Below are positions 20,265 to 59,137 of a DNA stretch of 64,000 nucleotides, piece by piece (the stretch's first letter is position 1; each line of letters opens with the position of its first letter). The notes under the pieces were generated by a model, which saw only the letters and a program-made list of their open reading frames with translations, did not search any database and was not told the DNA's origin. The DNA is taken from assembly GCA_039707465.1 (NCBI GenBank), contig CM077645.1:163608003-163672002 (forward strand). Direction: 5' to 3'. Source of the DNA: Rhabdophis nuchalis (taxonomy: Eukaryota; Chordata; Lepidosauria; Squamata; Natricidae). The position numbers and the translations under genes are program-made.

Positions 20265-20419
20265 AAGTAGTCCTTGACTTATGATCACAACTGAGTTTAA
20301 AACTTCTGTTGCTAAGTAAATCATGTGTTAAGTGAGTTTTGCCCCAATTTTGACCTTTCTTGCCTCAGTTGTTAAGTGAATCACTGCAGTTGTTAGGTTA
20401 ATGGGGCCTAGGGAGGCAG

Positions 20420-22929
20420 TTGGGCTTGCTGGTTGTATACCTGGCTCCCCGCTATGTAGCAGCAGCCCTGCCCGAGCTCCTGGAGGTGATCGCTACGGTG
20501 GCAGTTGAGACCCCCAGACTTTTAGTCATGGGGGACTTTAATCTGCCATCGGTGGGCGAATCATCCGAGGTAGCTCGGGAGTTCATGGCTTCCATGACGG
20601 CCATGGACCTGACCCAACTAATTCAAGGCCCCACTCACGAGGGTGGACATACACTGGATCTCATCTTTGTCTCAGGCCAATGGAAGAGTGATCTGGGTAT
20701 AGGGGATATAGTCATCACACCCTTGTCATGGTCAGGCCACTCACTTCTCCGGCTCGACTTTCCGACCGCTGCTCCCCTCCGCGGGGAGGCGGAACCTGAG
20801 TCACCAATCTGGTTCCGCCCCAGGCGCCTGATGGACCCGGATGGGTTCCAAATGGCGCTTGGGCCAGTTCCTGTACCCCTGACCCGCGCCCCGATGGAGG
20901 ACCTCGTGGCCGCATGGAATATTGCGACCACGGGAGCCTTAGATCGGGTCGCGCCCTTGCGGCCTCTCTTGCGGCGCCGAAACACCCTGGCTCCTTGGTT
21001 TACCGAGGAGCTGAGGGTGATGAAACGCCGCAAGAGATGCCTAGAGGGAAGATGGAGGTCTACCCATTCTGAATCTGACCGGACACAGGTAAGAGCCCAT
21101 TTACGGACTTACATTGTGGCGCTGAGAGTAGCCAAACGTCATCATTGTGCTACTCTCATAGCATCCGCAGACAACCGCCCTGCCGCCCTGTTTAGGGTGA
21201 CCCGCTCCCTCCTTCAACAGAGGGTGCGGGAAGCCCCGTTACAGGGTAGAGCAGAGGAATTTGTGATTTTTCTGCAGGAGAAAATCGCTCAGATACAGAA
21301 CGAGTTAGCCCCCATTCATGGCCCAGTGGGATGCCACGGGACAGATCTTGTTTGGGAGGAGTTTGACTCCGTTACTTCTGAGGATATGGACAGGTTACGT
21401 GGGCGACTGCGAGCCACCACATATTTATTGGACCCGTGTCCCTCCTGGCTTGTACTGGCATCCTGGGAGGTGACACGAGGCTGGCTCCAAGAGGTTGTCA
21501 ACGCATCCTTAAGCGAGGGTTCCTTGCCTGCTTCCCTAAAAGAAGCTATGGTGAGGCCCCTCCTTAAGAAGCCCTCTTTGGATCCAGCTCTTTTGAACAA
21601 CTACCATCCAGTCTCCAACCTTCCCTTTTTGGCGAAGGTTGTTGAGAGTGTGGTGGCACAACAGTTTCCCCGTCACCTGGAGGAAGTTGATTATCTAGAT
21701 CCGCGCCAGTCCGGCTTTCGGCCCGGGCATAGCACCGAGACGGCATTGGTCGCGTTGGTTGATGATCTCTGGAGGGCCAGAGATGGGGGTTGTTCCTCCA
21801 TCCTGGTCCTATTAGACCTCTCGGCGGCTTTCGATACCATCGACCATGGTATCCTATTGCATCGGCTGGGGGGGTTGGGGGTGGGAGGCACCGTTTTACG
21901 GTGGTTCTCCTCCTACCTCTCTGGCCGATCGCAATTTGTGTTGGCAGGGGGGCAGAGGTCGACCGCGAGACCCCTCACATGTGGGGTGCCTCAGGGGTCG
22001 GTCCTCTCGCCCCTCCTGTTTAACACATATATGAAGCCGCTGGGTGAGATCATCCGTGGTTTTGGGGTAGAGTACCATCTATACGCTGATGACACTCAGC
22101 TGTATATATCTACCCCAAACCACCCCAACGATGCCGTAGCAGTGATGTGCCAGTGCCTGGAAGCCGTGCGGATCTGGATGGGAAGTAACGGACTCAGGCT
22201 CAACCCGACCAAGACCGAGTGGCTGTGGTTTCCGGCTGCCCGATTCAACCAGCTTACTCCATCGCTGGCCATAGGGGGCGAACATCTTGCCCTTGTGGAT
22301 GGGGCGCGCAATTTGGGTGTCCTCCTGGATGCCCGGCTGTCCATGGAAGATCAAGTGACAGCCGTGGCCAGGAGGGCGTTTTACCAGGTTCGCCTGGTTC
22401 GCAATTGCGCCCCCTATTGGATCGGGACGCCCTTCGCACAGTCACTCATGCGCTCGTGACATCCCGACTGGACTATTGTAACTCTCTCTACATGGGGCTT
22501 CCCTTGAGGTGCACCCGGAGACTTCAGCTAGTCCAGAATGTAGCCGCGCGAGCAATTATGGGGACCGCAAGGTCTACCCACGTAACACCGCTCTTGCGCG
22601 AGCTGCCCTGGCTACCTGTCGTCTTCCGGGTGCGCTTCAAGGTGTTAATTATCATCTTTAAAGCGCTCCATGGCTCGGGACCTAGCTATCTGCGGGATCG
22701 GATCCTGCCTCATACATCCTCACGGCCGATTCGCTCCCACAGAGAGGGACTTCTCTGGGTGCCGTCCACTAGACCTTGTCAGCGGGCGACGCCCAGGGGA
22801 AGGGCTCTCTCTGTGGCGGGCCCGGCCCTCTGGAACGACCTTCCCGCCGATATTAGAACGACCACGGACCTCCGCTCTTTCCGTCTTAAATTAAAAACTC
22901 ACTTTTTCTGTCTGGCCGGCCTGGGATAG
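20420..22929 (+). pseudogene. L2 endonuclease/reverse transcriptase ORF, truncated and frameshifted
   Basis: The first frame, 20420-22459, encodes 679 residues. Near residue 41 is GDFNLP, part of the endonuclease fold. TLDLIFVS follows at about residue 77, and the catalytic SDH triad region reads SGHSLLRLDF, so the Asp is replaced by Gly. The reverse transcriptase begins near residue 395 (PVSNLPFLAKVVE), with DLSAAFDTIDH, CGVPQGSVLSPLLF and YADD (22082-22093). The frame ends in LMRS, while an overlapping frame (to 22929) carries the expected DYCNSLYMGLP and GPALWNDLP tail, so one base was gained or lost near 22.4 kb. The endonuclease start is missing, so the copy cannot be autonomous. Confidence 0.9.
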
Positions 22930-23441: not shown

Positions 23442-23798
23442 AAGGAATGTGGTGGCTCAGTGGCTAAGACGCTGAGCTTGTCAATCAGAAAGATCAGCAG
23501 TTCAGCGGCTCGAATCCCTAGTACCGCGTAACCGAGTGAGCTCCTGTTACTTGTCCCAGCTTCTGCCAACTGAGCAGTTCGAAAGCATTTAAAAATGCAC
23601 GTAGAAAAATAGGAACCACTTTTGGTGGGAAGGTAACAGCATTCCATGCACCCTCGGCATTTAGTCATGCGGGTCACATGACCACGGAGATGTGGTTCAG
23701 ACAGCACTGGCTCGTCGGCTTTGAAACAGAGATGAGCATCGACCCTTAGAATCGGGAACACTAGCACATATGTGTGAGGGAAACCTTTACCTTTACCT
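23442..23798 (+). mobile_element. tRNA-derived SINE with perfect 11-bp TSD
   Basis: The head GTGGTGGCTCAGTGGCTAAG is tRNA-like, with an A box and a decayed B box near CGGCTCGAATCC. The body contains CAGTTCGAAAGCAT and GGTGGGAAGGTAACAGCATT, and the tail is CCTTTACCTTTACCT. AAATCCAGGAC flanks it at 23431-23441 and 23799-23809, a perfect target duplication. Related copies lie at 28612-29040 (minus), 31391-31742 and 46043-46276. Confidence 0.92.
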
Positions 23799-28611: not shown

Positions 28612-29040
28612 TAAAGGTTCCTCTTGCACATATGTGCTAGTCGTTCCCGACTCTAGGGAGTGATGCTCATCTCCATTTCTTTTTATGAGAAAAAAGTTTT
28701 ATTGGTTTTTACAAAATTTTTAAAAATAGGAAAAGGGTATAAGGTATTGCTCATCTCCATTTCAAAGCCAAAGAACCAGCACTGTCCAAAAACATCCCCA
28801 TGGTCATGTGGCCGGCATGACTAAATGCCAAAGGTGCACGGAACACTGTTACCTTCCCACCAAAGATGGTTCCTATTTTTCTACTTGCATTTTACATGCT
28901 TTCAGGCTGCTAGGTTGGCAAGAGGTGGAACAAGTAACAGGAGCACACTTCGTTACGCGGCACTAGGATTCAAACCGCCAAACTGCTGACCTTTCTGATC
29001 GGCAAGCTCAGCGTCTTACATTTCTGTAGCTTGGGCCCAT
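28612..29040 (-). mobile_element. tRNA-derived SINE, minus strand, with nested insertion
   Basis: This is the antisense of the GTGGCTCAGTGGCTAAG SINE. It starts AAAGGTTCCTCTTGCACATA and contains ACCTTCCCACCAAAGATGG and CTTTCTGATCGGCAAGCTC at the head end. A 69-bp piece at 28680-28748, flanked by a 15-bp duplication of SINE sequence, splits it. Confidence 0.88.
28680..28748 (-). mobile_element. Very short retrotransposed tail inside a SINE
   Basis: GCTCATCTCCATTTC occurs at 28665-28679 and 28749-28763, a perfect 15-bp target duplication. The 69 bp between them start TTTTT on the plus strand, so the insert is minus-strand and ends in a short poly(A). Its sequence (AAACCAATAAAAC near the end) resembles a LINE 3' end, perhaps L1. 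Confidence 0.75.
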
Positions 29041-31390: not shown

Positions 31391-31742
31391 TTGTGGTAGC
31401 TTAGTGGCTAAGAGGCTGAGCTTGTCGATCAGAAGATCAGCAGTTCAGGGGTTCGAATCCCCAGCATCACATAACGGAGTGAACTCCCTTTACTTGTCCC
31501 AGCTTCTGCCAATCTAGCAGTTCGAAAGCATGTAAAAAATGCAAGCAGAAAAATAGGGACTGCCTTGGTGGGAAGGTAACAGCACTCCATGTGCCTTCGG
31601 TGTTTAGTCATGCCAACCACATGTCCATGGAGACATGTTTGGACAGTGTTAGCTCTTTGGCTTTGAAACTGAGATTAGCACACACACCCCTAGAGTCGAG
31701 AACAACTAGCACACGTGTGTGTGGGGGAAAACTTTATCTTTA
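31391..31742 (+). mobile_element. tRNA-derived SINE
   Basis: The same family as 23442-23798: head GTGGTAGCTTAGTGGCTAAG, B box GGGTTCGAATCCC, body CAGCTTCTGCCAATCTAGCA, end AACTTTATCTTTAC. CAGCTTTG on both sides is a plausible target duplication. Confidence 0.9.
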
Positions 31743-33056
31743 CTCAGCTTTGCAATTTCCTTTTTTTCTCTTCTCCAGACAGACAAGGGAGGGGGGAGGC
31801 AGAACTCAAATGGTTTCTTCACCCCTTCTCTAAGCGATGGGTGAAAAAGTTAATTTTGTTTGTTTTTTATGGTGACTGCCCCATGTTGATTATTCAGAGG
31901 AGTTCCTAATTGTCCCTCAATCATGGGCATATCCATAGTTGCCTTTAAAATGTGACATCCCCTTCTCTGTTCATTAATGAGATTTGCAATCCAGCCAGCC
32001 TTTTCAACAGGATGCCTGGACGCTTGCTTTCAAGAGGCTACTTGGAATTAAGCACTGAGTAAAAGGCAAGGTTAGCAAGGGGAGGGAAGTAAAGGAAGGA
32101 GGACTCTTCAAAAGCATTGCCGGTAGTATTCTCCTGTCTCATCGAAATACTGCCAAATTATAGAGGCTTTTTCTACTGTATCATCCTAATTGCATCCTAA
32201 TGCAGGACTGGAACTTCAGAGAATAATCTGTCTGAGGACAAGCTGAAGGGCAGAGGTTTTCTGATCAAACTGGGGGTTTCATTACAATTCTATAATCTCT
32301 CTTCCACCAGAGGAATAGAAAAAAATATTAAATATGATGATATTTTCAGCATGGCATTATGATGTTAAAATGCAAAGAGCTGAAGCTTTGCAATACGAGT
32401 GGTTTAACTATCTGAATTTAGATCAGGATACGAGAGCATTGTTGAACTGACTAATGTGTCACTGTACCATTTCTTCCCACTCTGTAGCTTATTCTGTCAA
32501 TTGTCGGATCCCAGAGGCGACTGTAGCAAAAAGCTGGGCTTTAAGTTAGAGCCGATCAAGGAGCTTTTCTGGTTTCCACCACAACTCAGCATTGGTTTTA
32601 AATAGAATTTCCTTCACATTATTTTTTTCACTCCTCACCAGATAGATTGTTCTCATGTTTCTGAAGAAGTAATGGCATTGAAGGCTTGCTGTTTCACATA
32701 ATGTAGTGGAATCTTCTCCCTATGTTCTTTACTGTCTGCTCTTTCTGTGGACTTATTCTCAAGTATCAGCAGTGCTGCTATTCATCTCTTCATGGATAGC
32801 TCCTGGATCACCCAATAGCATTGTAAAGCAAAGTGGCTTTGCAACTTGATGATGATCAAACCCTGACTCAGAGCAAAAACCATATAGTCATAGTCATAGC
32901 TAGTGTGGCAATAATCACATCCACAGAGCCATATGTTAAATAGAATGAAGCAGCCGGGCCAGTTGATTCATAGGGAGGGCAGCAGGTGTGATCATTACCC
33001 CAATTTACCACTTTTCCACTTAGCTAATATGTGGCTGCTTATATTACCTCACGAAT
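31743..33056. other. Intergenic, no feature recognised
   Basis: No recognisable gene or repeat. Confidence 0.5.
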
Positions 33057-34455: not shown

Positions 34456-35128
34456 GTTTATTTATTTTATTTATTTCGATTTATATAACCGCTCCTTCTC
34501 CATCGAAATGGACCCAGGGCAGTGCACAGGGAGTTAAAATCAATAAATAACAATAAATACAGTAATAATGTCTAAAATGAATTAAACTAAGGACCTGTGC
34601 TAAAACATTCCCATTAAAATTCTAAAATACATTTACTCGTTGGCTGAGGTTGAATTATATCAGAGCTCTAAGCTCTAAGCTAGACCGGCTTGATGGAAAA
34701 GATATGTCTTAAGTGAGCGGCGAAAGAGGGGAAGGTCTGTGATAGTCCGAAGTTCGGGGGGTAGGTCGTTTCAGAGGGATGGCCCTGCCACCGAGAAGAC
34801 CCTTCCCCTGGGCACTGCTAGCCGGCATTGACCAGCGGATGGTACCCTGAGGAGGCCCTCCCTATGGGAGTGGATCAGACGGTGGGAGGTATGCGGCAGG
34901 AGACGGTCCCACAAATAACTAGGCCCCGTGCTATGGAGCGATTTGAAGATGGTAACAAGCACCTTGAAGCACACCCGGAAGGCCACCGGCAGCCAGTGCA
35001 GCTCGCGCAGGAGAGGTGTTACGTGGGAGCTTCGAGATGCTCCCAGAATCCCCCGTGCGGCCGCATTCTGCACTAACTGGAGCCTCTGGATGCACCTCAA
35101 GGGGAACCCCATGTAGAGAGCCCCATGT
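34456..35128 (-). mobile_element. L2-clade LINE 3' fragment, minus strand
   Basis: A TTTA-rich tail is followed by the antisense 3' UTR and ORF end. The minus frame 35112-34771 gives MGFPLRCIQRLQLVQNAAAR and LLRELHWLPVAFRV, the L2 C-terminal domain. It breaks off at CATGTAGAGAG, the equivalent of codons just before that region, so the copy is about 0.67 kb and 5'-truncated. Confidence 0.9.
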
Positions 35129-36512: not shown

Positions 36513-36998
36513 TTGCTAATAATTACTGACTCTGTAAGAATATGTGTGATGGCGAACATCATTAAATTCTACTGAAACCTCACCAATTGATTTGTCCCAC
36601 CATCAAACGATGAAGAAATTCTTGAATAGGAGTATGACTAATGTTCATAGTGATTTTCCTATGTGTTGTGTGATGAAGAATATTATTGGTATGGAACACA
36701 CTTCTTTGTACTTTAGATCTCTGAGATCTAGCAATTGAGCAGAGGTATAAAGAGTTAGGTTAAATCTTGTTGAGATGAAAGGAGTGTAAGTATTTTGAAT
36801 CTATTTTGAGACTTTTTTTTTAAAAAAAAGCAAAAAATTGCACCATCAATAATATGATATTTGTCATGAAATCTTGGCAGTATAATCTCATAAGGATGCC
36901 AAGCAGTATAATTTTCTACCATCTGATTTTAATTAGAGTTGAATTCAGGAAAGGACTTATCAATTGATAGGCTTCCTCATGTTAATTATGTGGAAGCT

Positions 36999-37050
36999 GG
37001 CCACCTATGTCATGTCGCAGAGGCGTGCGACATGACATAGGCCACCTATG
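36999..37050. repeat. 30-bp hairpin insertion between 11-bp direct repeats
   Basis: GGCCACCTATG occurs at 36999-37009 and 37040-37050. The segment between forms, with the edges of the repeats, a perfect 15-bp stem (CTATGTCATGTCGCA at 37005-37019 with 37026-37040) and a 6-base loop. It borders the tail of the hammerhead-bearing SINE. Confidence 0.9.
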
Positions 37051-37092
37051 TTTTTTAGTTTTATGAGCTGATCAATAAATTAAATTAGAAGA

Positions 37093-37139
37093 GACCAGGA
37101 TAGATCTATTTCGAGCTTATTAGCTCTCATCAGCTGGCC
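37093..37139 (-). ncRNA. Hammerhead self-cleaving ribozyme motif, copy 1
   Basis: On the minus strand the core CUGAUGA (37133-37127) is followed by stem II GAGCU/AGCUC with an AAUA loop (37126-37113), then GAAA (37112-37109). Stem III is AUA/UAU closed by a GAUC loop (37109-37100), ending in the cleavable triplet AUC, with C17 at 37099. Stem I pairs GGCCAG (37139-37134) with CUGGUC (37098-37093). Every conserved core base of a type I hammerhead is present. Predicted cleavage is between 37099 and 37098. Cleavage activity is inferred from structure. Confidence 0.85.
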
Positions 37140-37142
37140 ATA

Positions 37143-37220
37143 CCCCTTACTGGGATTCGAACCGGGGCTATGTTGCATGCAAGGCGAGAAACCTCACACT
37201 TAAGCCAAACCAGTTCCCCT
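37143..37220 (-). other. tRNA-like head with A and B boxes (SINE promoter)
   Basis: The minus strand folds partly like a tRNA, with A box at 37207-37197 and B box at 37163-37153. It is an internal pol III promoter of a SINE, not a functional tRNA gene: no matched acceptor stem is seen and it runs straight into the ribozyme. A transcript from it would include the hammerhead. Confidence 0.65.
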
Positions 37221-37369
37221 ATTACATCAGCTTAGACAGGGTATATTAGTATAGGTAATTGTTTCACAACAACCTGTTATTATTAGGCCCCAATTAAAGG
37301 GAGGAGACATACTGTTTCCCTTACTGCCCATCGGCTCATCGCTAGAGATGCTAGAAACATATATATATG
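37221..37369. other. Spacer between the two hammerhead repeats
   Basis: This 149-bp segment lies between the SINE head and the second hammerhead repeat. It has no recognised motif. The period between equivalent bases of the two ribozymes is exactly 315 bp. Confidence 0.5.
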
Positions 37370-37461
37370 TTAGTTTTATGAGCTGATCAATAAATTTAAA
37401 TTTGAGAGACCAAGATAGATCTATTTCGAGCTTATTAGCTCTCATCAGTTGGCCACACCCC
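37370..37461 (-). mobile_element. Second hammerhead-bearing repeat, headless
   Basis: This 92-bp direct repeat of 37055-37146 keeps the hammerhead and the GATCAGCTCATAAAACTAA tail but lacks the tRNA-like head. It differs from copy 1 at a handful of positions, mainly in the AT-rich part. It could be a 5'-truncated neighbour or the upstream half of a tandem unit. Confidence 0.75.
37408..37454 (-). ncRNA. Hammerhead self-cleaving ribozyme motif, copy 2
   Basis: It has the same layout as copy 1: CUGAUGA (37448-37442), stem II (37441-37428), GAAA (37427-37424), stem III with the AUC triplet (37424-37414), and stem I GGCCAA (37454-37449) with UUGGUC (37413-37408). The innermost stem I pair is A-U here and G-C in copy 1, a compensatory change that supports selection for the fold. 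Predicted cleavage is between 37414 and 37413. Confidence 0.85.
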
Positions 37462-37696
37462 ACTGTATATATATATATTCCATGATATTCAGTTGATTTT
37501 AATTTATTGATGCCTTTGATAAGATATTCTTGCTAAGAAATGTATCCCTCATTCTGATATTTTTACAATCTTTCTAATTGCTTTCTTTAATTTGTCTTTT
37601 ACTTATTTCCTCCTTACAGGGAGAAAAAATCAGCAATTCAATTCAGGTAAACAATAATTCAACTAGACACTTTCAAAATTGTTACTACAATTACTA

Positions 37697-38106
37697 CAGG
37701 TAGTCTTCAACTAATGACCAACACTGGTACTAGAAATCTGGTCATAAATCATTGTGGTCATAACTAGAGGCACCCAGGTGAGCAGACCTATTTTCTGACA
37801 TTTTTTTAATGTAGTTCTTGAGCAAATCATTATGGTCCTTAAACAAACAGTATAATCATTAAGTGAAACCAGTTTCCCTCACAGGTGTTTTTTGTTGGAA
37901 ACCAGCAAAAAATACCAGAAACTAGCAGGCTGTCACAAATTGTGGTTATGTGACCATGGAACACTGCAACTGATTGCATATGTGATCCAATTGTCAAGCT
38001 CTTGAAGTGACATTTCACAACAGCTGGAAGTCTGGACCCCATTCTGAGGTCATCGTAACTCCAAACCATCATAAATCAGGTGGTCATAAATTGAGGACTA
38101 CCTCTG
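37697..38106. mobile_element. AGGTAGTCCTC-family small transposon
   Basis: The left end CAGGTAGTCTTCAACTAATG and the right end AATTGAGGACTACCTCTG form a clear inverted repeat. The interior has the family words GTGACCATGGAACACTGCAA and GGTCATCGTAACTC. It is non-coding and diverged from the copy at 8642. Confidence 0.75.
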
Positions 38107-38614
38107 CAACAGATTCCATTGACTCTTCTGGCATCTACAGTATAATAGCGAATCACATTATTCAATGTGATATCTACAAGAAACTACGAAAAACCAAATC
38201 GAAATGGTCCATGAACTTGCTTGTTATTCTTATTTGTAGACATTTCATTACCATGCTAGGCAATTTGATCCGTGTAACTCTTACTCTTTGTTTCTATTTG
38301 GCACCCTCCTGTCTTTCTATTTGTTCTTATTCCTTCTTTCTGGCACCCATTTTCCCTCTTTCTCATTTTGTCCTTCCCAGTTCAGGCTGTCACAAATCAG
38401 CAGATCAAGTCTAGATGCTTGGGGCTTTTGAAATTGGATCAGGGACTGCAATGTTCTAACATTGAATTTTGTCCTTGACCACCTCATACTTACCTTGACC
38501 ACTTCACACTTGAAGAGTGTGTGCCGTAAACAATTTTCTCTACTTGCTTGTACCTACTTCTTTTGTACCCCCTTGTTTCACATGCACCATTACATGTTTC
38601 AAAATTTGGTTTCT
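38107..38614. other. Intergenic, no feature recognised
   Basis: No recognisable gene or repeat. Confidence 0.45.
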
Positions 38615-39000
38615 CTAAGTTGAAAGTCTGTAGAGATTCTCAGTCATGCAGGTCATGGTTGTCCCAAAGGTGCTTTTTCAGGAAGCAACTTGATTTTCTC
38701 ATTTTTTCTTTGGAAGACAATTCATTTCTTATCCAAGAAGCTTCTTCAGCTCTGACTGGATAGTGGGGAATGGAAAGATTTACATTCCTTGCAAACAGCT
38801 GGTAATTTGCAACTTTTTAGAGGGCTGTTGAAGCACTTGGAGGTTTATCTGTGTCCTCAGGGTCACTTGAGTACTGCTCCTGGTTCCTGTAGTCTGCAAT
38901 GAATTTGAAAATTTTCCCAGAGGAAAAATCCATTGAATTTGATGTGAAAATGTTGTCCTGGTATTCATTGTTTTTTTGGTACGCCAACAATGTGATAGGA
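38615..39000 (-). repeat. Dispersed-repeat-like sequence of unknown class
   Basis: Words such as TCCAAGAAGCTTCTTCAGCT, GAGATTCTCAGTCATGCAGG and AAAGGTGCTTTTTCAGGAAG are familiar from a repeat spread in fish and reptile genomes, possibly linked to Penelope-like elements. No reverse transcriptase frame is visible, so the class is left open. Confidence 0.4.
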
Positions 39001-41652
39001 AAAGGGGGACAGCCCTGGAGAGTAGACAGGAAGTCATCCATGCCAGGAAGATCACTGCAAAAAGGAAGAGAATGATGGTCACAGAAGGCAAGACAGGAAA
39101 TCAGCCATGCTGGAAAGGTTGCTGACAAAGGAAAAAGGACAGACAGGAAGTCTTTCCAGGCTGGAACAAAGGGTCACATGGTAAATCACATGGTTTGCTT
39201 GGCACTCATCATTTTTAATACTCATCATGCCTCCCAGAACCAATTAACAATGAGTATCGAGGCACCATTATATCTTTTTTAGTTTTATGCTCAAGTATAG
39301 TTTTATGCTCAAGAAGGAATTTTAATTGAGGTATTTTCACTGGTTCTTTTTTCTTCTTCTACAAACTGAGAAATAAGGAGATAGTGGCCAGTGAATATGA
39401 AGGCAGATTCTGTCATTCTTCCTTCCACAGCATATCTAAGATCAAAGACAACTATAGAGAATGATTACTTTATAGATTCGGAGTTTTTCCAACAGTGATA
39501 ACTATAGAGGCTTCTATATCCAAGGTTTTCAAAGTCCTATAATCAGAAATAAGGAAAGGGAACTTAGCTTTCATGTCCAGACCTGAAATCAACTTAACTA
39601 AAATCCACCTATGTATTCTGGGCCACTGTTTGATTGTAAAAACTGTCCAATTATCTCACCAAAAGCCAAGCATCTCAGTCTTTTTGGATTTTTTATAAAA
39701 ATTATGATTGGTGAATGCTTTATATTTCATATGCATTCTTATCACTTCTCTATGCTTTAGAAAGTTATTAGCTGAACCATGCAGAGTGACCAAAAGTGAA
39801 CATTGAATCATTATGTTTTCAGCTCATCTTACAGCAAGCTAGGTGTTAAATTCAAGCCAGTGAAGAAGAAAGTGATGGTTGAAAGTAATATCTAATAAGT
39901 TAGGTCCAAATTATTTCTAAGGCAGGGTGGTGTCCACACTCAACTTCAATGTTATAAAAGAGAAATATGTAGCATTGATAGTTATGCTAGAACATAGGAG
40001 AAAAAAAATTAATGGAATTCATGTAGGAGAGTTCTGTCAATTATTTGATAAACACTTCAAATAAATAGTTCATTCATAAGCTGCAAGTAATATCCAGGTC
40101 CTCAGTCCCAAATAATTGGATTTTTTTTCTTTCCAATGTTGAAGAACAAGTCCCTTAATAATAAAAACAATGTCAAGAATCCATTTCCATTCCCCTATTA
40201 TTAATTTCCATGTAGCAATTTAAGTAATTCTAAAGAATGCTAATATCCAATTATACTATAATCTGTAAAAAAAAGTAAGTCTCAACATTTTGAGGTACCC
40301 CAAATATATCCATGAATGAAGAATTCATTTTACAGCATCTCCCAAAATGCAATCATTTAATTATTCATGTACAAATACAGTTTGGTCTAATAAGAGAAAC
40401 ACTCATTTAGTTTGTTGAATAAGCCGCAGTCTAAGATGTGATATATTTCAAGACAGTCTTCCATTGTTTCGACAAAATAAGGCTCTCCAATTTCTTATTC
40501 CACTTAATTTTTAAAATTTGCATGTCAAGTTGACTTATTGCTAGCATGTGCGCATAAAGATTGATTGTGAGATTTTAAGACTCAAAAGCGTTCGCAATTT
40601 CAGGTGTTACTGATGCTAAAGATGCTGCAGGCTCAAATGAAGATGTTGTAGGTGTAAATACTGCTAGTGGGTAGCAAAAGACAAAATATATTAGTGTTTC
40701 AACACAGACATTAATCACTGTAATTCAATAATTAGTCAAAGGTAAAAACCCTAGCATTCATTCCAAATCTCCCACATAGCTAATTTCTCATCAATTGTAA
40801 GGTAGGGATCTCTCCATAAAGTCAATTTAACATAAGAATAATATATTTTTTGCAGATGCCACAGTATTCAAATTGATGCAGTAGTTACAGGAACTATGTT
40901 TCACTGATCATATTTGAACTTAAAATGGTCTAATTAAGCAAAAGTACTATGTGTGAACATTTCAGTGGACCTAAGGAGAATAATTTATGCTAAGGAAAGC
41001 TGTCCAAAATTTGATACCAATTAAAAGACATGCATAACAATATAATTCAATATTTGGAAAACCACGCCAGTCTCCTTAACTGACAACTGCATTGTTTTCA
41101 AGACTATCTTCTGAAGAACATCATATGGATCTATGGAACAATTTATCAAGTTTTTAAATATATTTTCCTAATAGATAGCTACATGGGAATTTCATCTGCA
41201 GAACTACATTCATTTTGAGAGTATTTATGCTACCCCAAAGTTTAAGGTTCAAATACTTCCATTTATCAATAACCCAAACTTAGATATCTTTATTCATCTT
41301 ATTCTGTACTGCAATTTTCAAATATGTACATGAAGTATAGAATACCAGTATATATAAAATATATATTTAAAATGTTATGTTGTAATGTATCAATACATTT
41401 TTAGCTTTGGGCATCTATTCCAATTTAAACTAATTAATTGAACATCCTACAACTTGCCTAAACACATTAATCAAATGCATCAAAGCCAGAATTGAACTAT
41501 AAATTTCTGAGAAAAAACAAATTATCATCAGCATATAATGCTAGTCTTGTATGATTATTATGATTTTGTCTAATAGCACACGATAGAGTTTCTAATCACA
41601 TATTAGTCAAAAGATAAAATGATCATCATTGTCTATTACCTTTGCCATAAAA
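39001..41652. other. Intergenic, no feature recognised
   Basis: A long AT-rich stretch with no recognised gene, RNA or repeat. Confidence 0.5.
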
Positions 41653-46042: not shown

Positions 46043-46276
46043 GCTCAGTGGCTAAGACACTGAGCTTGTCGACCAGAAAGGTCGGCAGTTCAGCGGTTCT
46101 AATCCCTAGCACTGCCGACCTAGCAGTTCGAAAGAATGTAAAAATGCTAGTAGAAAAATAGGGACCACCTTTGGTGGGAAGCACTGGCTCTTTGGCTTTG
46201 AAATGGAGACGAGCACCACCCCCTAGAGTCAGGAACAACTAGAACATATGTGCGAGGGGAACCTTTACCTTTATGT
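46043..46276 (+). mobile_element. tRNA-derived SINE with internal deletions
   Basis: The same family as 23442: TTGCTCAGTGGCTAAGACAC, CTAGCAGTTCGAAAGAATG, GACCACCTTTGGTGGGAAGC, AGGGGAACCTTTACCTTTA. Segments present in other copies (the CGTTACTTG part and the ACATGACCA part) are missing. Confidence 0.88.
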
Positions 46277-46672: not shown

Positions 46673-46680
46673 CTTTAAAC

Positions 46681-46815
46681 CAGGGGTCCCCAACCTTTGC
46701 AACTTTAAGTCTGAAGGACCTCAGCTCCCAGAATTCTCCAGCCAGCTTTGCTGGCTGGAGAAGTGTGGGAGCTGAAGTCCTTCAGACTTAAAGTTGCAAA
46801 GGTTGGAGACCTCTG
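46681..46815. mobile_element. Palindromic hAT-like MITE with perfect TSD
   Basis: This 135-bp element starts CAGGGGTCCCCAACCTTTGC and its right half is nearly the reverse complement of its left half, with the axis in the CAGCCAGCTTTGCTGGCTG region. CTTTAAAC flanks it at 46673-46680 and 46816-46823. Confidence 0.92.
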
Positions 46816-46823
46816 CTTTAAAC

Positions 46824-49623: not shown

Positions 49624-50487
49624 CCGCCCATCTATCACTCTGTGTTTGTGTGTGTGTCTGTCTGTCTCGCATTCACGCACTTAATCACTTTCTGCGTCTC
49701 TCTCTTTCTCTCCCTCCCTCCCTCTCTGTCTCTGTGTGTGTGTCTGTCACTCTCTGATTCCCCCCTCCGCTCCCTGTCTCTCTCTGTGTCTGTGCCTCTC
49801 TCTGTCTGCCTGTCGTGGTGCCCACCCGCCCGCCCGTCCCCCGCGGAGCCTCTTCATCCCGGGGCCGCTGTGCTCACTCACCTTAGCTTGCCCTCCCCGC
49901 CGCCCGGCCGCCTGCAGCTGAGAAGCGTGTGTGTGTGTGTGGGAACAGGGAGAGTTTTGCTGCGAGTGGCGGGGGGTGGGGTGGGGGTTTGCGCAGCTTA
50001 GCGGCTCTTGTTTCGCCGCCCCTAGCCGGCAGGCTTCAAAGGCCGAGCCCTTCAGCGAGCATTCGGCCTTTGAAGCCTGCCGGCTAGGGGCGGCGAAACA
50101 AGAGCCGCTAAGCTGCGCAAACCCCCACCCCACCCCCCGCCACTCGCGGCAAAACTTTCCCTGTTCCCACACACACACACATGCTTCTCAGCTGCAGGCG
50201 GCCGGGCGGCGGGGAGGGCAGGCTAAGGTGAGTGAGCACAGCGGCCCCGGGATGAAGAGGCTCCGTGGGGGACGGGCGGGCGGGCGGGCACCACGACAGA
50301 CAGACAGAGAGAGGCACAGACACAGAGAGAGACAGGGAGCGGAGGGGGGAATCAGAGAGTGACAGACACACACACAGAGACAGAGAGGGAGGGAGGGAGA
50401 GAAAGAGAGAGACGCAGAAAGTGATTAAGTGCGTGAATGCGAGACAGACACACACACACACACAAACACAGAGTGATAGATGGGCGG
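49624..50487. repeat. Inverted repeat with ~430-bp arms and ~20-bp loop
   Basis: The left arm from CCGCCCATCTATCACTCTGTG (49624) is mirrored by the right arm ending CAGAGTGATAGATGGGCGG (50487). The axis is near 50055, between TTCAAAGGCC and GGCCTTTGAA. The arms differ only by scattered substitutions and small indels. The interior is GC-rich (CGGCTCTTGTTTCGCCGCC) and the outer parts are CT/GT simple repeats. The nearly identical 143-residue open frames on the two strands are mirror products of the palindrome. Confidence 0.95.
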
Positions 50488-53243: not shown

Positions 53244-54225
53244 TCTGGATTCCCTTCCTTTCCTTTCCATTCCTTTCCATTCCATTCCTTTCGATTCCCT
53301 TCCTTTCCTTTCCTTTCCTTTCCATTCCTCTCCATTCCTCTCCATTCCTTTCCTTTCCATTCCTTTCCTTTCCTTTCCATTCCTTTCGATTCCCTTCCTT
53401 TCCTTTCCTTTCCTTTCCATTCCTCTCCATTCCTCTCCATTCCTTTCCTTTCCTTTCCTCTCCATTCCTCTCCATTCCTTTCCATTCCTCTCCATTCCTT
53501 TCCTTTCCATTCCTTTCCTTTCCTTTCGATTCCCTTCCTTTCCTTCCCTTTCCATTCCTCTCCATTCCTCTCCATTCCTTTCCTTTCCTTTCCATTCCTC
53601 TCCATTCCTCTCCATTCCTTTCCATTCCTCTCCATTCCTTTCCTTTCCATTCCTTTCCATTCCTTTCCTTTCCTTTCGATTCCCTTCCTTTCCTTTCCTT
53701 TCCTTTCCATTCCTCTCCATTCCTCTCCATTCCTTTCCTTTCCTTTCCTCTCCATTCCTCTCCATTCCTTTCCATTCCTCTCCATTCCTTTCCTTTCCAT
53801 TCCTTTCCATTCCTTTCCTTTCCTTTCGATTCCCTTCCTTTCCTTTCCTTTCCTTTCCATTCCTCTCCATTCCCCTCCATTCCTTTCCTTTCCTTTCCAT
53901 TCCTCTCCATTCCTCTCCATTCCTTTCCATTCCTCTCCATTCCTTTCCTTTCCATTCCTTTCCATTCCATTCCTTTCGATTCCCTTCCTTTCGATTCCCT
54001 TCCTTTCCTTTCCTTTCCATTCCTCTCCATTCCTCTCCATTCCTTTCCTTTCCTTTCCATTCCTTTCCTTTCCATTCCTTTCCATTCCTCTCCATTCCTC
54101 TCCATTCCTTTCCATTCCTTTCCATTCCATTCCTCTCCATTCCTTTCCATTCCTTTCCATTCCATTCCTTTCGATTCCTTTCCTTTCCTTTCCTCTCCAT
54201 TCCTTTCCTTTCCTTTCCTTCCTTC
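53244..54225 (+). repeat. ATTCC/TTTCC pentamer satellite with 150-bp higher-order period
   Basis: Almost 1 kb is built from TTTCC, ATTCC and TCTCC pentamers. The marker TTTCGATTCCC recurs with its G at 53293, 53388, 53528, 53678, 53828 and 53978, so the last three intervals are exactly 150 bp. Because 15 bp is both three pentamers and five codons, both strands stay open for hundreds of codons. These frames (up to 671 residues) are not genes. Confidence 0.95.
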
Positions 54226-54961: not shown

Positions 54962-55027
54962 GGCCCGGTTCCTATGAAGCCGCGGACCGGCACCGGTCCG
55001 CGGACCAGGGGTTGGGGACCCCTGGTC
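54962..55027. mobile_element. Orphan hAT (Charlie-like) right end
   Basis: GGTTCCTATGAAGCCGCGGA, a local palindrome ACCGGCACCGGT, GGTCCGCGGACC and the terminus GGGTTGGGGACCCCTG are the end of a widespread hAT-derived repeat. No matching CAGGGGTCCCCAAC start is present to its left inside the TIR element. Confidence 0.65.
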
Positions 55028-55029
55028 TA

Positions 55030-55593
55030 ACAGACACACAGAGGGGGAAGAGAGAGGGGGAAGGAGGAAACCCTCCACAGCCGCGCGGAGACGGCGTGGA
55101 GTCTCCACGCGGCTGTGGAGGGTTTCCTCCTTCCCCCTCTCTCTTCTCCCTCTGTGTGTCTGTAGAAAGACGGGGGGGAGGGAATCAGAGTCTAACAGAC
55201 ACACAGAGGGGGAAGAGACAGAGGGGGAAGGAGGAAACCCTCCACAGCCGCGCGGAGACAGCGTGGAGTCTCCGCGCGGCTGTGGAGGGTTTCCTCCTTC
55301 CCCCTCTCTCTTCTCCCTCTGTGTGTCTGTTAGACTCTGATTCCCTCCCCCCCGTCTTTCTACAGACACACAGAGGGAGAAGAGAGAGGGGGAAGGAGGA
55401 AACCCTCCACAGCCGCGCGGAGACGGCGTGGAGTCTCCGCGCGGCTGTGGAGGGTTTCCTCCTTCCCCCTCTCTCTTCTCCCTCTGTGTGTCTGTTAGAC
55501 TCTGATTCCCTCCCCCCCGTCTTTCTCTCGCTCTGGGCAGAGAGCGAGAGAAAAACGGGGGGGGAGGGAATCAGAGTCTAACAGACACACAAC
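55030..55593. repeat. Array of three tandem palindromes plus a fourth partial one
   Basis: Three hairpin modules lie at 55030-55163, 55195-55330 and 55362-55495 (134, 136 and 134 bp). Each runs ACAGACACACAGAGGG to its own reverse complement across a CGCGCGGAGAC/GTCTCCGCGCG core. The 31-bp spacer 55164-55194 is the reverse complement of the spacer 55331-55361, so larger palindromes span neighbouring modules. After 55495 another inverted repeat (TAGACTCTGATTCCC to GGGAATCAGAGTCTA) closes around CTCTGGGCAGAG. Confidence 0.95.
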
Positions 55594-56830: not shown

Positions 56831-59137
56831 CAATTTCCACCATCTTCATCAATCATTCATCCATTGCAGATAATGCCAAATCTTTCCATCTTTGTGTGTA
56901 TAATAGAGTATGTACTTTTCAGGAAGACAAAAGAAACTTCTTGCTTGTCACCTTAACTAACATTTTAATGGTTTGCCAAATCATGTGAAGATATATAACA
57001 ATCCAAATAGTCACAATCAATAAAAGCAGAAATGTCTTGGTTTTTGTTTTTTTTAAGTATTAGGGATTTTTAAAAATATCCTACAGTTTTTTGGGGCTTA
57101 GGCATAATAACTAAGAATGTATTTTCTTAAAATATACTTCAGATAGCCAATTATGAAAATCTGAAAAAAGTTTTTATTAAAGAGATTTTGCAAGAGATTG
57201 TTCGTATTTCCACACAAAAGGTACAATAAAATTAGTGTACAATACTCACAGAGGTTGGTGAGTTATTCACTACTCCGATGATGCTACATACATGTTAAGG
57301 ATGCATGCTACATACATGTAAAGGAGAAGTTAATCTTATTGTAGTGTTACCTTTGTAGCTGGAGTGCTAAATTAACATTTGAGGTTCAACTCTACCCAGT
57401 AGCTATGAAACTCAGTGAGTGACTCTTCTACTGTGCAGCACAATGAGTTGCCATGTTAACGGCTTCACAGTAGTCCCCAAGGGGGCTCCCTCATTAGAAA
57501 TTACGTTTGGTCTGGAGATTTTCCCCTTATAAATAAATACTCGGGCAACAGTGTGTTATTGGCTAGTGATCTATAAATTCAGCACTCTTCAGTAATATAT
57601 AGCACTTACAAACACATTAATGTCAGATGGAGGTCTTGATCCAGAAGACTCTTGCATGAAAAATAAAACCCCTTATTATTTTTAATTAAATATTCTTAGT
57701 ATTTAGGAAATCATGGGAAGTTTCCATTTTATGTAGAGCAGTAAAGATATTGTTGCTTGTCATTTTTTTCTTTAATGTAGGTTTGTTTTTCTTTTTTAAA
57801 TCCCATTAATTAACTATGAATTATTTATTTTCTAACAAGATTGAGATAAAAATGCAACCCCAAATTGTGCTTTTAAAGTGTATCAGTTCATTACACAGGG
57901 ATTTGTTTTGTTTTGGCACCAAAATACTCACCGGGAGGAGGAGTCAGTCCTAAGGTTCTGTAGTTATTTCTAAAACTGACAGTGGGATGATGACAAGGAC
58001 AAGATAACATTTACAGTTGAGACAGGAAATTCTCGTAGATAATGCAAGAATATTTCTTAGATTCATGGAGATTCTCCTGACACTCTTTAAAAAAATAAAA
58101 GGGTTTCTAAAATCTGGCTTTATAGAGCACATTTAACACTTACATAACTCTTGATTTCTCATCAAAGTACATACATTTCCAGCCAATTAATATTATATTT
58201 TCTATGCATCCACCTGCATTGTGTGAGTGCTGTAACATTAGGGGATTTTACTCTTGAAAGCTGCATAACTGTGCAGCTGTTTTTTCTCAACAGAGAGTCA
58301 TTGTATTTTTGCTGAATTGTGTATAATATTCCACAAGCATTCTTCTCAAGGACTATACTTGGATCAAATGTGATTATTTTTATCATTTTATTGAGAAATG
58401 AATGATGTATTATAAGTGCATTGGCTTGCTAGCTTACTCATAGTATGCTTTTTAGTGTTCAATTTTAACCATATAACTAAAATTGTAATTCCACTGAATT
58501 CATGGGCAAAGCTGCATTAAAATAAGAATGCAATAACATGCTGATATTAAAACAAAACCGAATAAAACAGCAAAACTTTCCTTCATAAATAGGGAGGGCT
58601 TCCATTATTGCTCTATAAATCTCTGTATTCCTCAATCATTTCCTTTTGCTCTTCCATATTTCTTCCTATGTATTTTATACTACTTTCACATAATTCTCAA
58701 AAAACGTTTCCTGCATTATTCTCCACAAATTTAGCACTGTAAGTAGCTTTCAGCAAAATAGGCCTGCCTAACACTCCTAAAGTTTTATAAGCTTCATTAA
58801 ACAGGGCCCAAACCTTGTGAATACCTAGAGACAAAGTCTCTTTTTTTTCTTTAGGTGACTATCCAGATGATAGCCTATGAAGTGCTTGCTATAGATATCA
58901 TGATGAAAGATGTCTGTTAAAATGTGATATTGAAATCATTAAAATCTGGGAGATTTTGATTGTCCTTTCAATCATTGGTATTGGCTTTGGTAAATATCAT
59001 TAAAATGATATTGGTAAATTGATAAATATCAGCAGGATATTGCAGTAAGCCTCTTTAGATTAAAAATTGACTATTAAAATGTACATTTATGTGAATAGTG
59101 ATGGTGAAATCTTGCTTTTGCTTTGAAATCAAAAAGA
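56831..59137. other. Intergenic, no feature recognised
   Basis: AT-rich; a small duplicated word GCTACATACATGT lies near 57288 and 57308. No gene or family is recognised. Confidence 0.5.

Follow-up and report, generated by a model that had tools for sequence, protein, structure and literature searches.

Two type I hammerhead ribozyme motifs in a candidate short retroposon of the snake Rhabdophis nuchalis

Hammerheads in introns and mobile repeats

Hammerhead ribozymes of amniotes have been reviewed as intronic motifs of reptiles, birds and mammals, with DTNB of birds and reptiles among their locations, and were found to resemble the hammerheads in retroelements of metazoans up to the coelacanth and amphibians (PMC6155905). 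In Xenopus, type I hammerheads lie in interspersed repeats, and because these hammerheads resemble the two that are conserved in human introns, the human motifs were proposed to have been retained from such an element (PMC3088659). Animal retrozymes are given as about 170–400 nt long, with a GC content under 45%, and as present from dimers upward; the hammerheads of axolotl and newt, in which helix III is short, show poor cleavage as monomers that improves in the dimer, and one axolotl hammerhead family has a palindromic tetraloop (PMC7229834). For an Aedes hammerhead, a supplementary figure legend describes that loop III can pair fully in the dimer, which gives a 10-bp stem (PMC3088659). The tRNA-related SINEs of squamates include Squam1 (Sauria), Squam2 and Squam3 with lengths of about 190–350 nt, and the main text of the article on these three families contains neither 'ribozyme' nor 'palindrom' (PMC10702118).

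Here, we describe two type I hammerhead motifs on the minus strand of a 64-kb window of the snake Rhabdophis nuchalis, i.e., the whole stretch of 64,000 nucleotides that was analysed (assembly GCA_039707465.1, contig CM077645.1, forward-strand positions 163,608,003 to 163,672,002); all coordinates below are positions in this window. The motifs share with the newt satellite and the axolotl retrozymes the type I fold, a short helix III and a favoured dimer, which in the snake is predicted (PMC7229834). However, the axolotl elements are tandem units of 330–350 bp with one or two stem III pairs, whereas the snake element has three stem III pairs, forms no tandem array in the 64 kb and possesses a tRNA-like head. 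A likeness by description only exists to SMalpha of schistosomes, a SINE-like retroposon with a type I hammerhead (PMC8490949), although the host of SMalpha is a flatworm. Likewise by description only, the snake element compares to Squam1-3 as tRNA-related SINEs of squamates. Sjalpha, a schistosome SINE-like retroposon, reportedly also contains a hammerhead. Penelope-like elements had been named as carriers of type I hammerheads in the first-pass annotation of this locus. The comparison holds in that both are type I hammerheads in a retroelement, but Penelope hammerheads are described as usually minimal, without helix III and tertiary contacts (PMC6155905), and the helix III present here and the outer stem I predicted for copy 1 fit this less well. 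An origin from a Penelope element was rejected on the helix III of both copies, as opposed to the minimal Penelope hammerheads.

Two motifs with a complete core

The two motifs lie on the minus strand where the first-pass annotation had placed them and contain every part that it had listed (Table 1). Each consists of CUGAUGA, a 5-bp stem II with an AAUA loop, GAAA, a 3-bp stem III with a GAUC loop, the AUC triplet and a 6-bp inner stem I that includes one G-U pair. All core bases are present in both motifs, with GAA plus A15.1 in each copy and C17 preceding the return strand of stem I, and a core of 35 nt is exactly common to both copies (minus strand, 37448-37414 and 37133-37099). The core CUGANGA...GAAA...UH, three helices and the opening at helix I were found in both copies, and the descriptor scan thereby supports the type I topology as well. 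This is a real motif that had been described correctly, and the cleavage sites predicted for it earlier follow from the motif layout.

Table 1 Features of the hammerhead locus (window coordinates)
Feature	Position	Strand	Basis
Hammerhead copy 1, type I	37093..37139	-	motif, descriptor scan, HH9 match
Hammerhead copy 2, type I	37408..37454	-	motif, descriptor scan, HH9 match
Predicted cleavage site, copy 1	37098..37099	-	motif position 41 = C17
Predicted cleavage site, copy 2	37413..37414	-	motif position
Copy 1, consisting of a tRNA-like head, the hammerhead and a short 3' tail that ends in AAACTAA	37047..37231	-	5' limit presumed
Copy 2: apparent 97-bp insertion CAGTGGGG...AAACTAAC, without tRNA-like head	37369..37465	-	alignment, AT edges
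Shared 3' tail, ATTTATTGATCAGCTCATAAAACTAA and next bases	37047..37080	-	alignment of both copies
Pol III A-box-like sequence TGGCTTAAGTG	37197..37207	-	regular-expression scan
Pol III B box GGTTCGAATCC	37153..37163	-	regular-expression scan
10-nt palindrome ATAGATCTAT (stem III plus loop), copy 1	37100..37109	-	sequence
10-nt palindrome ATAGATCTAT, copy 2	37415..37424	-	sequence
AT run at the 5' edge of copy 2, probably a target-site duplication or a microsatellite that was split	37466..37478	.	(AT)5+ scan
AT run, 3' side of copy 2	37359..37368	.	(AT)5+ scan
Copy 1 with predicted outer stem I (37147-37143 with 37091-37087) and UAU/U internal loop (37142-37140 / 37092)	37087..37147	-	RNAfold prediction

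A descriptor that combines the core with at least 5, 3 and 3 pairs in stems I, II and III, respectively, was scanned over both strands of the 64-kb window and matched at exactly two places, i.e., at these two motifs. The same descriptor found two matches in 200 dinucleotide-preserving shuffles, which corresponds to 0.01 per window. At this level of 0.01 per shuffled window, a chance origin of the match is refuted; it is also opposed by the presence of two copies of one repeat. The lack of an Rfam match at gathering score is the point on its side, and the probability that we leave to chance is negligible.

At gathering scores, Rfam gave no match for either motif. In E-value mode, Hammerhead_HH9 (RF02275) matched copy 1 with 33.5 bits (E = 1.4e-4) and copy 2 with 25.8 bits (E = 0.041) in the search of the whole window; on a 701-bp stretch alone, the E-values were 1.5e-6 and 4.5e-4, respectively. 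The gathering score of RF02275 is 52, and thus neither copy reaches the threshold in the Rfam check that had been proposed along with the motifs. The HH9 score of copy 1 is nevertheless well above chance. HH9, which we take to be the hammerhead of the RECK intron, resembles the snake motifs in the core and the A-rich loop II and, for copy 1, also in CAG/CUG beside the core in stem I. It differs from them in that the motifs here are two copies in a repeat block, with a palindromic stem III plus loop, and stay below the HH9 gathering score. The window yielded 90 sub-threshold Rfam rows, most of them miRNA models on inverted repeats at 55.0–55.6 kb and 46.7 kb, and several of these miRNA rows have lower E-values than HH9. 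Sub-threshold E-values alone therefore prove no family, and it is the complete core, rather than the Rfam E-value, that carries the hammerhead assignment.

The inverted repeats themselves comprise a cluster of inverted and tandem repeats with a 165-bp period (55025-55591), which accounts for many of the sub-threshold miRNA matches, and a 149-bp self-complementary element (46674-46822, 90%), either strand of which has mir-5408-like matches below threshold. Elsewhere in the window are a near-perfect palindrome of about 864 bp (49624-50487, 96.3% identical to its own reverse complement) and a 975-bp TTCCT/TTCCA tandem array (53250-54224).

The 47-nt motifs of the two copies differ at just two positions, 6 (G/A) and 42 (C/U), and both differences are partners of the innermost stem I pair, which is G-C in copy 1 (37134-37098) and A-U in copy 2 (37449-37413), as had been noticed from the start. 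For two random differences among 47 positions, the probability of hitting both partners of any one of the 14 pairs is 0.013. In a formal control, the same covariation count was reached in 249 of 500 letter shuffles. The first-pass annotation had regarded the paired change as strong evidence that the fold was maintained, a wording too firm for a single changed pair between two sequences; the covariation between the copies appears real but weak.

Carrier element and predicted folding

The two copies have a block of about 100 bp in common (37146-37047 and 37461-37362), with 91% identity over 101 columns. Chosen blocks of both copies were aligned with MAFFT, and in a gapped local alignment the shared block reaches CAGT on the 5' side and fades after AACTAA. 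Immediately upstream of the hammerhead of copy 1, and of this copy only, an A and a B box of RNA polymerase III are placed at tRNA-like spacing. The regular expression for A/B pairs matched three places in the window, with the pair at copy 1 as the sole one on the minus strand, and 0.033 places per window in 300 shuffles, for which the B box was slightly looser than in the window scan. The other two places overlap at 31397-31405, within a different dispersed repeat. The family of this repeat (23448-23796, 28748-29018, 31392-31743 and 46043-46273), one copy of which has A/B-box-like sequences (31397-31460), showed no BLAST similarity to the hammerhead region. ARAGORN found no tRNA gene at the head of copy 1, and the head had no match to the Rfam tRNA model at E ≤ 10 either. 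As numerous SINE heads have diverged too far to be recognized by tRNA models, these misses lower the SINE claim without excluding it.

Copy 2 starts at CAGT, where the T arm would be, and we take the shared CAGT to continue a T arm, as expected from tRNA anatomy. The 64 kb contain only three (AT)5+ runs, two of which edge copy 2, as compared to 0.13 per window in shuffles. From its sequence, copy 2 looks like an insertion of its own, 97 bp long and 5'-truncated, with either an AT target-site duplication or an AT microsatellite as target. As AT runs edge copy 2 on both sides, the 215-bp spacer between the copies reads as host DNA. No clear target-site duplication was found at copy 1. Directly downstream of copy 1, the stretch 36999-37051 contains a hairpin with perfect 16+16 arms (37004-37041), and the 12-bp sequence GGCCACCTATGT is directly repeated at 36999 and 37040.

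Beyond these two, the 64-kb window contained no further hammerhead copies; a third match of model R1 (57001-57042; 9.8 bits, E = 4.1) is without stem II. At 39271-39289, 19 bp resemble the end of the tail (CATAAAACTAAAAAA; E = 0.037), with GAGCATAAAACTA twice in succession and no hammerhead seen alongside. Exact motif patterns had no match in collections of viral or prokaryotic contigs, a miss that says little, and a looser pattern matched one viral contig (L001), in which the 171 bases around the match show no hammerhead stems by eye. The element had no blastn match among phages, and of the 135 and 6 candidates from protein searches with two translated pieces of it, none reached E ≤ 10. Sequence strings of the element retrieved 2 and 22 papers, whose titles point to unrelated subjects. 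With regard to a Penelope-type reverse transcriptase beside the element, no Pfam family was found at E ≤ 0.001 in three open reading frames within about 3 kb of the locus (37986-38414 on the plus strand, 38817-39173 and 34771-35127 on the minus strand).

Folded as monomers, the hammerhead structures have predicted energies of −9.4 kcal/mol for copy 1 and −7.7 kcal/mol for copy 2, versus minimum free energies (MFE) of −13.2 and −11.3 kcal/mol, respectively, and the hammerhead fold has a Boltzmann probability of 0.0004 in each copy (ViennaRNA). Stems I and II are probable in the monomer, and the pairs of stem III have probabilities near 0. The advantage of the monomers over shuffles is modest: the MFE has a z of −2.09 for copy 1 and −1.53 for copy 2, with 5 and 14 of 200 shuffles, respectively, being as good. 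Energy models leave the hammerhead core unscored, which makes the poor monomer fold a weak negative. For copy 1 only, and with its flanks included, an outer helix with a UAU/U internal loop is predicted to extend stem I; this internal-loop position is the site at which natural hammerheads form the contact between stem I and loop II. Folded together with its flanks, copy 2 misfolds in prediction.

Both copies possess the palindromic stem III plus loop that characterizes repeat-type dimeric hammerheads. In the predicted double hammerhead, the palindrome AUAGAUCUAU forms a 10-bp intermolecular stem III. This double hammerhead is the predicted MFE homodimer of both copies, at −35.0 kcal/mol for copy 1 and −31.6 kcal/mol for copy 2 versus −26.4 and −22.6 kcal/mol for two separate monomers, and the heterodimer of copy 1 and copy 2 (MFE −30.7 kcal/mol) has the same layout with one stem I pair open. 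With each of the 256 possible tetraloops placed in copy 1, the double hammerhead was the MFE dimer for 13 of the 16 palindromic sequences and for 5 of the 240 others. A favoured dimer of this kind has been published for some hammerheads in repeats, such as those of axolotl and newt, and is paralleled by the dimer described for Aedes.

Further pairing is conceivable within the element. Base pairing between its 5' end, GCUGAUGUAAUAGG, and its tail, UUUAUUGAUCAGC, would enclose the element in full (z −2.57, with 2 of 200 shuffles as good), and the tail pairs as well or better with 1.4% of 25,590 25-nt windows. Alternatively, the tail pairs with the hammerhead core, and 4.2% of windows match the pairing of a 21-nt core piece. 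The modelled head-tail and tail-core pairings are leads, neither of which is strong.

Origin and proposed life cycle

The reading that we favour, with some reserve, is that of a short non-autonomous squamate retroposon, a tRNA-headed SINE in which dimers of the type I hammerhead probably do most of the cleaving. A SINE carrier had already been considered for the motifs, and this part of the first-pass annotation is favoured by the Pol III boxes and the AT-flanked insertion, while the tests of the head against tRNA models speak against it. Only two copies are present and only one has the head, which leaves the head and the hammerhead unproven as a single element, and for a family that is otherwise absent, independent insertions of two copies within 315 bp would be odd. 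The scores of both copies under the Rfam gathering threshold, the lack of a clear target-site duplication at copy 1, the weak monomer fold and the predicted misfolding of copy 2 with its flanks also count against the SINE.

The two copies could alternatively belong to a vertebrate non-LTR retrozyme, in which a self-cleaved circular RNA would have been reverse-transcribed into a partial dimer, with copies 2 and 1 at the ends of one 315-nt unit. Their spacing of 315 nt and a GC content of 40.6% are within the published range of animal retrozymes, both are on the same strand with no third copy in 64 kb, and the hammerhead is dimeric in prediction. However, a tandem unit of 315 nt was demoted because of the AT runs at both edges of copy 2, which make the 215 bp between the copies look like host DNA; the local alignment begins at CAGT and fades after AACTAA; and both partners of one pair differ between the copies, although units of one circle should start out identical. 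We consider a retrozyme rather unlikely. The start of the shared block, just a few bases inside the tRNA-like part, would suit a headless hammerhead repeat of about 100 bp, of which copy 1 adjoins tRNA-like sequence by chance, and ARAGORN and Rfam did not recognize this tRNA-like part. Still, the shared CAGT would continue a T arm naturally, given the general anatomy of tRNAs, a 5' truncation inside the head would be ordinary for a reverse-transcribed element, and A/B boxes at such spacing are rare in shuffles. A headless repeat is an unlikely explanation.

A relic of an older mobile element, neither copy of which cleaves, is compatible with the SINE reading, so that the probabilities of the two overlap, and we regard it as a tentative but serious possibility. 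It is consistent with the weak predicted monomer fold, the misfolding of copy 2 with its flanks and the divergence of the copies, which are about 91% identical over the 101 columns, although the core bases are all intact in both copies and both differences within the motif keep the pairing. Very improbable, by comparison, is a conserved intronic hammerhead of reptiles of the kind already reported, e.g., in DTNB, in place of a mobile repeat. Reptile intronic hammerheads, DTNB included, are reported in the review (PMC6155905), and the top Rfam match is to the amniote intronic model HH9, but the same 100-bp block is found twice, 315 bp apart and once edged by AT runs, and its scores are well under the HH9 gathering score.

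Read from 5' to 3', the SINE that we favour would start with a tRNA-like Pol III head, followed by the type I hammerhead and by a short tail with AAACTAA at its end. Head and hammerhead would be transcribed jointly by RNA polymerase III, and the transcript could extend well past the tail, as the first TTTT on the minus strand past the A box is at 36837. A cut after C17 (37099) would leave the tail on one fragment and the tRNA-like head with most of the ribozyme on the other. With only 3 bp in its stem III, a single hammerhead is expected to be weak, and a double hammerhead could form when two RNA molecules, or two units within a long transcript, join via the 10-nt palindromic stem III, as is reported for newts and axolotl. 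The RNA would remain mostly uncut at low concentration, and double hammerheads would form and cut once the RNA is abundant or its units follow each other in tandem on a transcript. If copy 2 was inserted by retroposition, the RNA that was reverse-transcribed would have been uncut, because copy 2 spans both sides of the cut.

Mobilisation would be provided by a LINE. Among the other features of the window is an open LINE frame of 685 aa (20402-22459) with a reverse transcriptase domain (RVT_1, E = 3.3e-34). A protein search with this frame returned 7,982 candidates and 2,336 relatives, the best 120 of which are mostly squamate, with a few fish, coelacanth and unnamed proteins; the highest identities among the matches listed are to the snakes Pituophis, Ahaetulla and Naja, at 83%, 83% and 78% over 30%, 33% and 49% of the query, respectively, which supports a squamate host and makes a snake likely.

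A reptile hammerhead in itself is already known, and one in a mobile repeat would be new. Among the papers listed in our literature search, there was no report of a hammerhead in a squamate SINE or a reptile mobile repeat, which is a weak negative with subscription journals mostly outside its coverage. Amniote intronic hammerheads are proposed to descend from mobile repeats, for which amphibians and the coelacanth are named as living carriers (PMC6155905, PMC3088659). A squamate mobile hammerhead repeat, if true, would be a carrier inside the amniotes, and the intronic origin would become testable by comparison of copies. It is a distinctly unlikely, more far-reaching proposal that an amniote SINE family with a dimer-only hammerhead has a built-in brake, in that cleavage dependent on RNA concentration would remove the tail needed for reverse transcription, and that the same mobile lineage could be the source of the amniote intronic hammerheads of the HH9 type. 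A self-cutting Pol III SINE, if true, would pose the question of how its spread continues when cleavage removes the 3' end.
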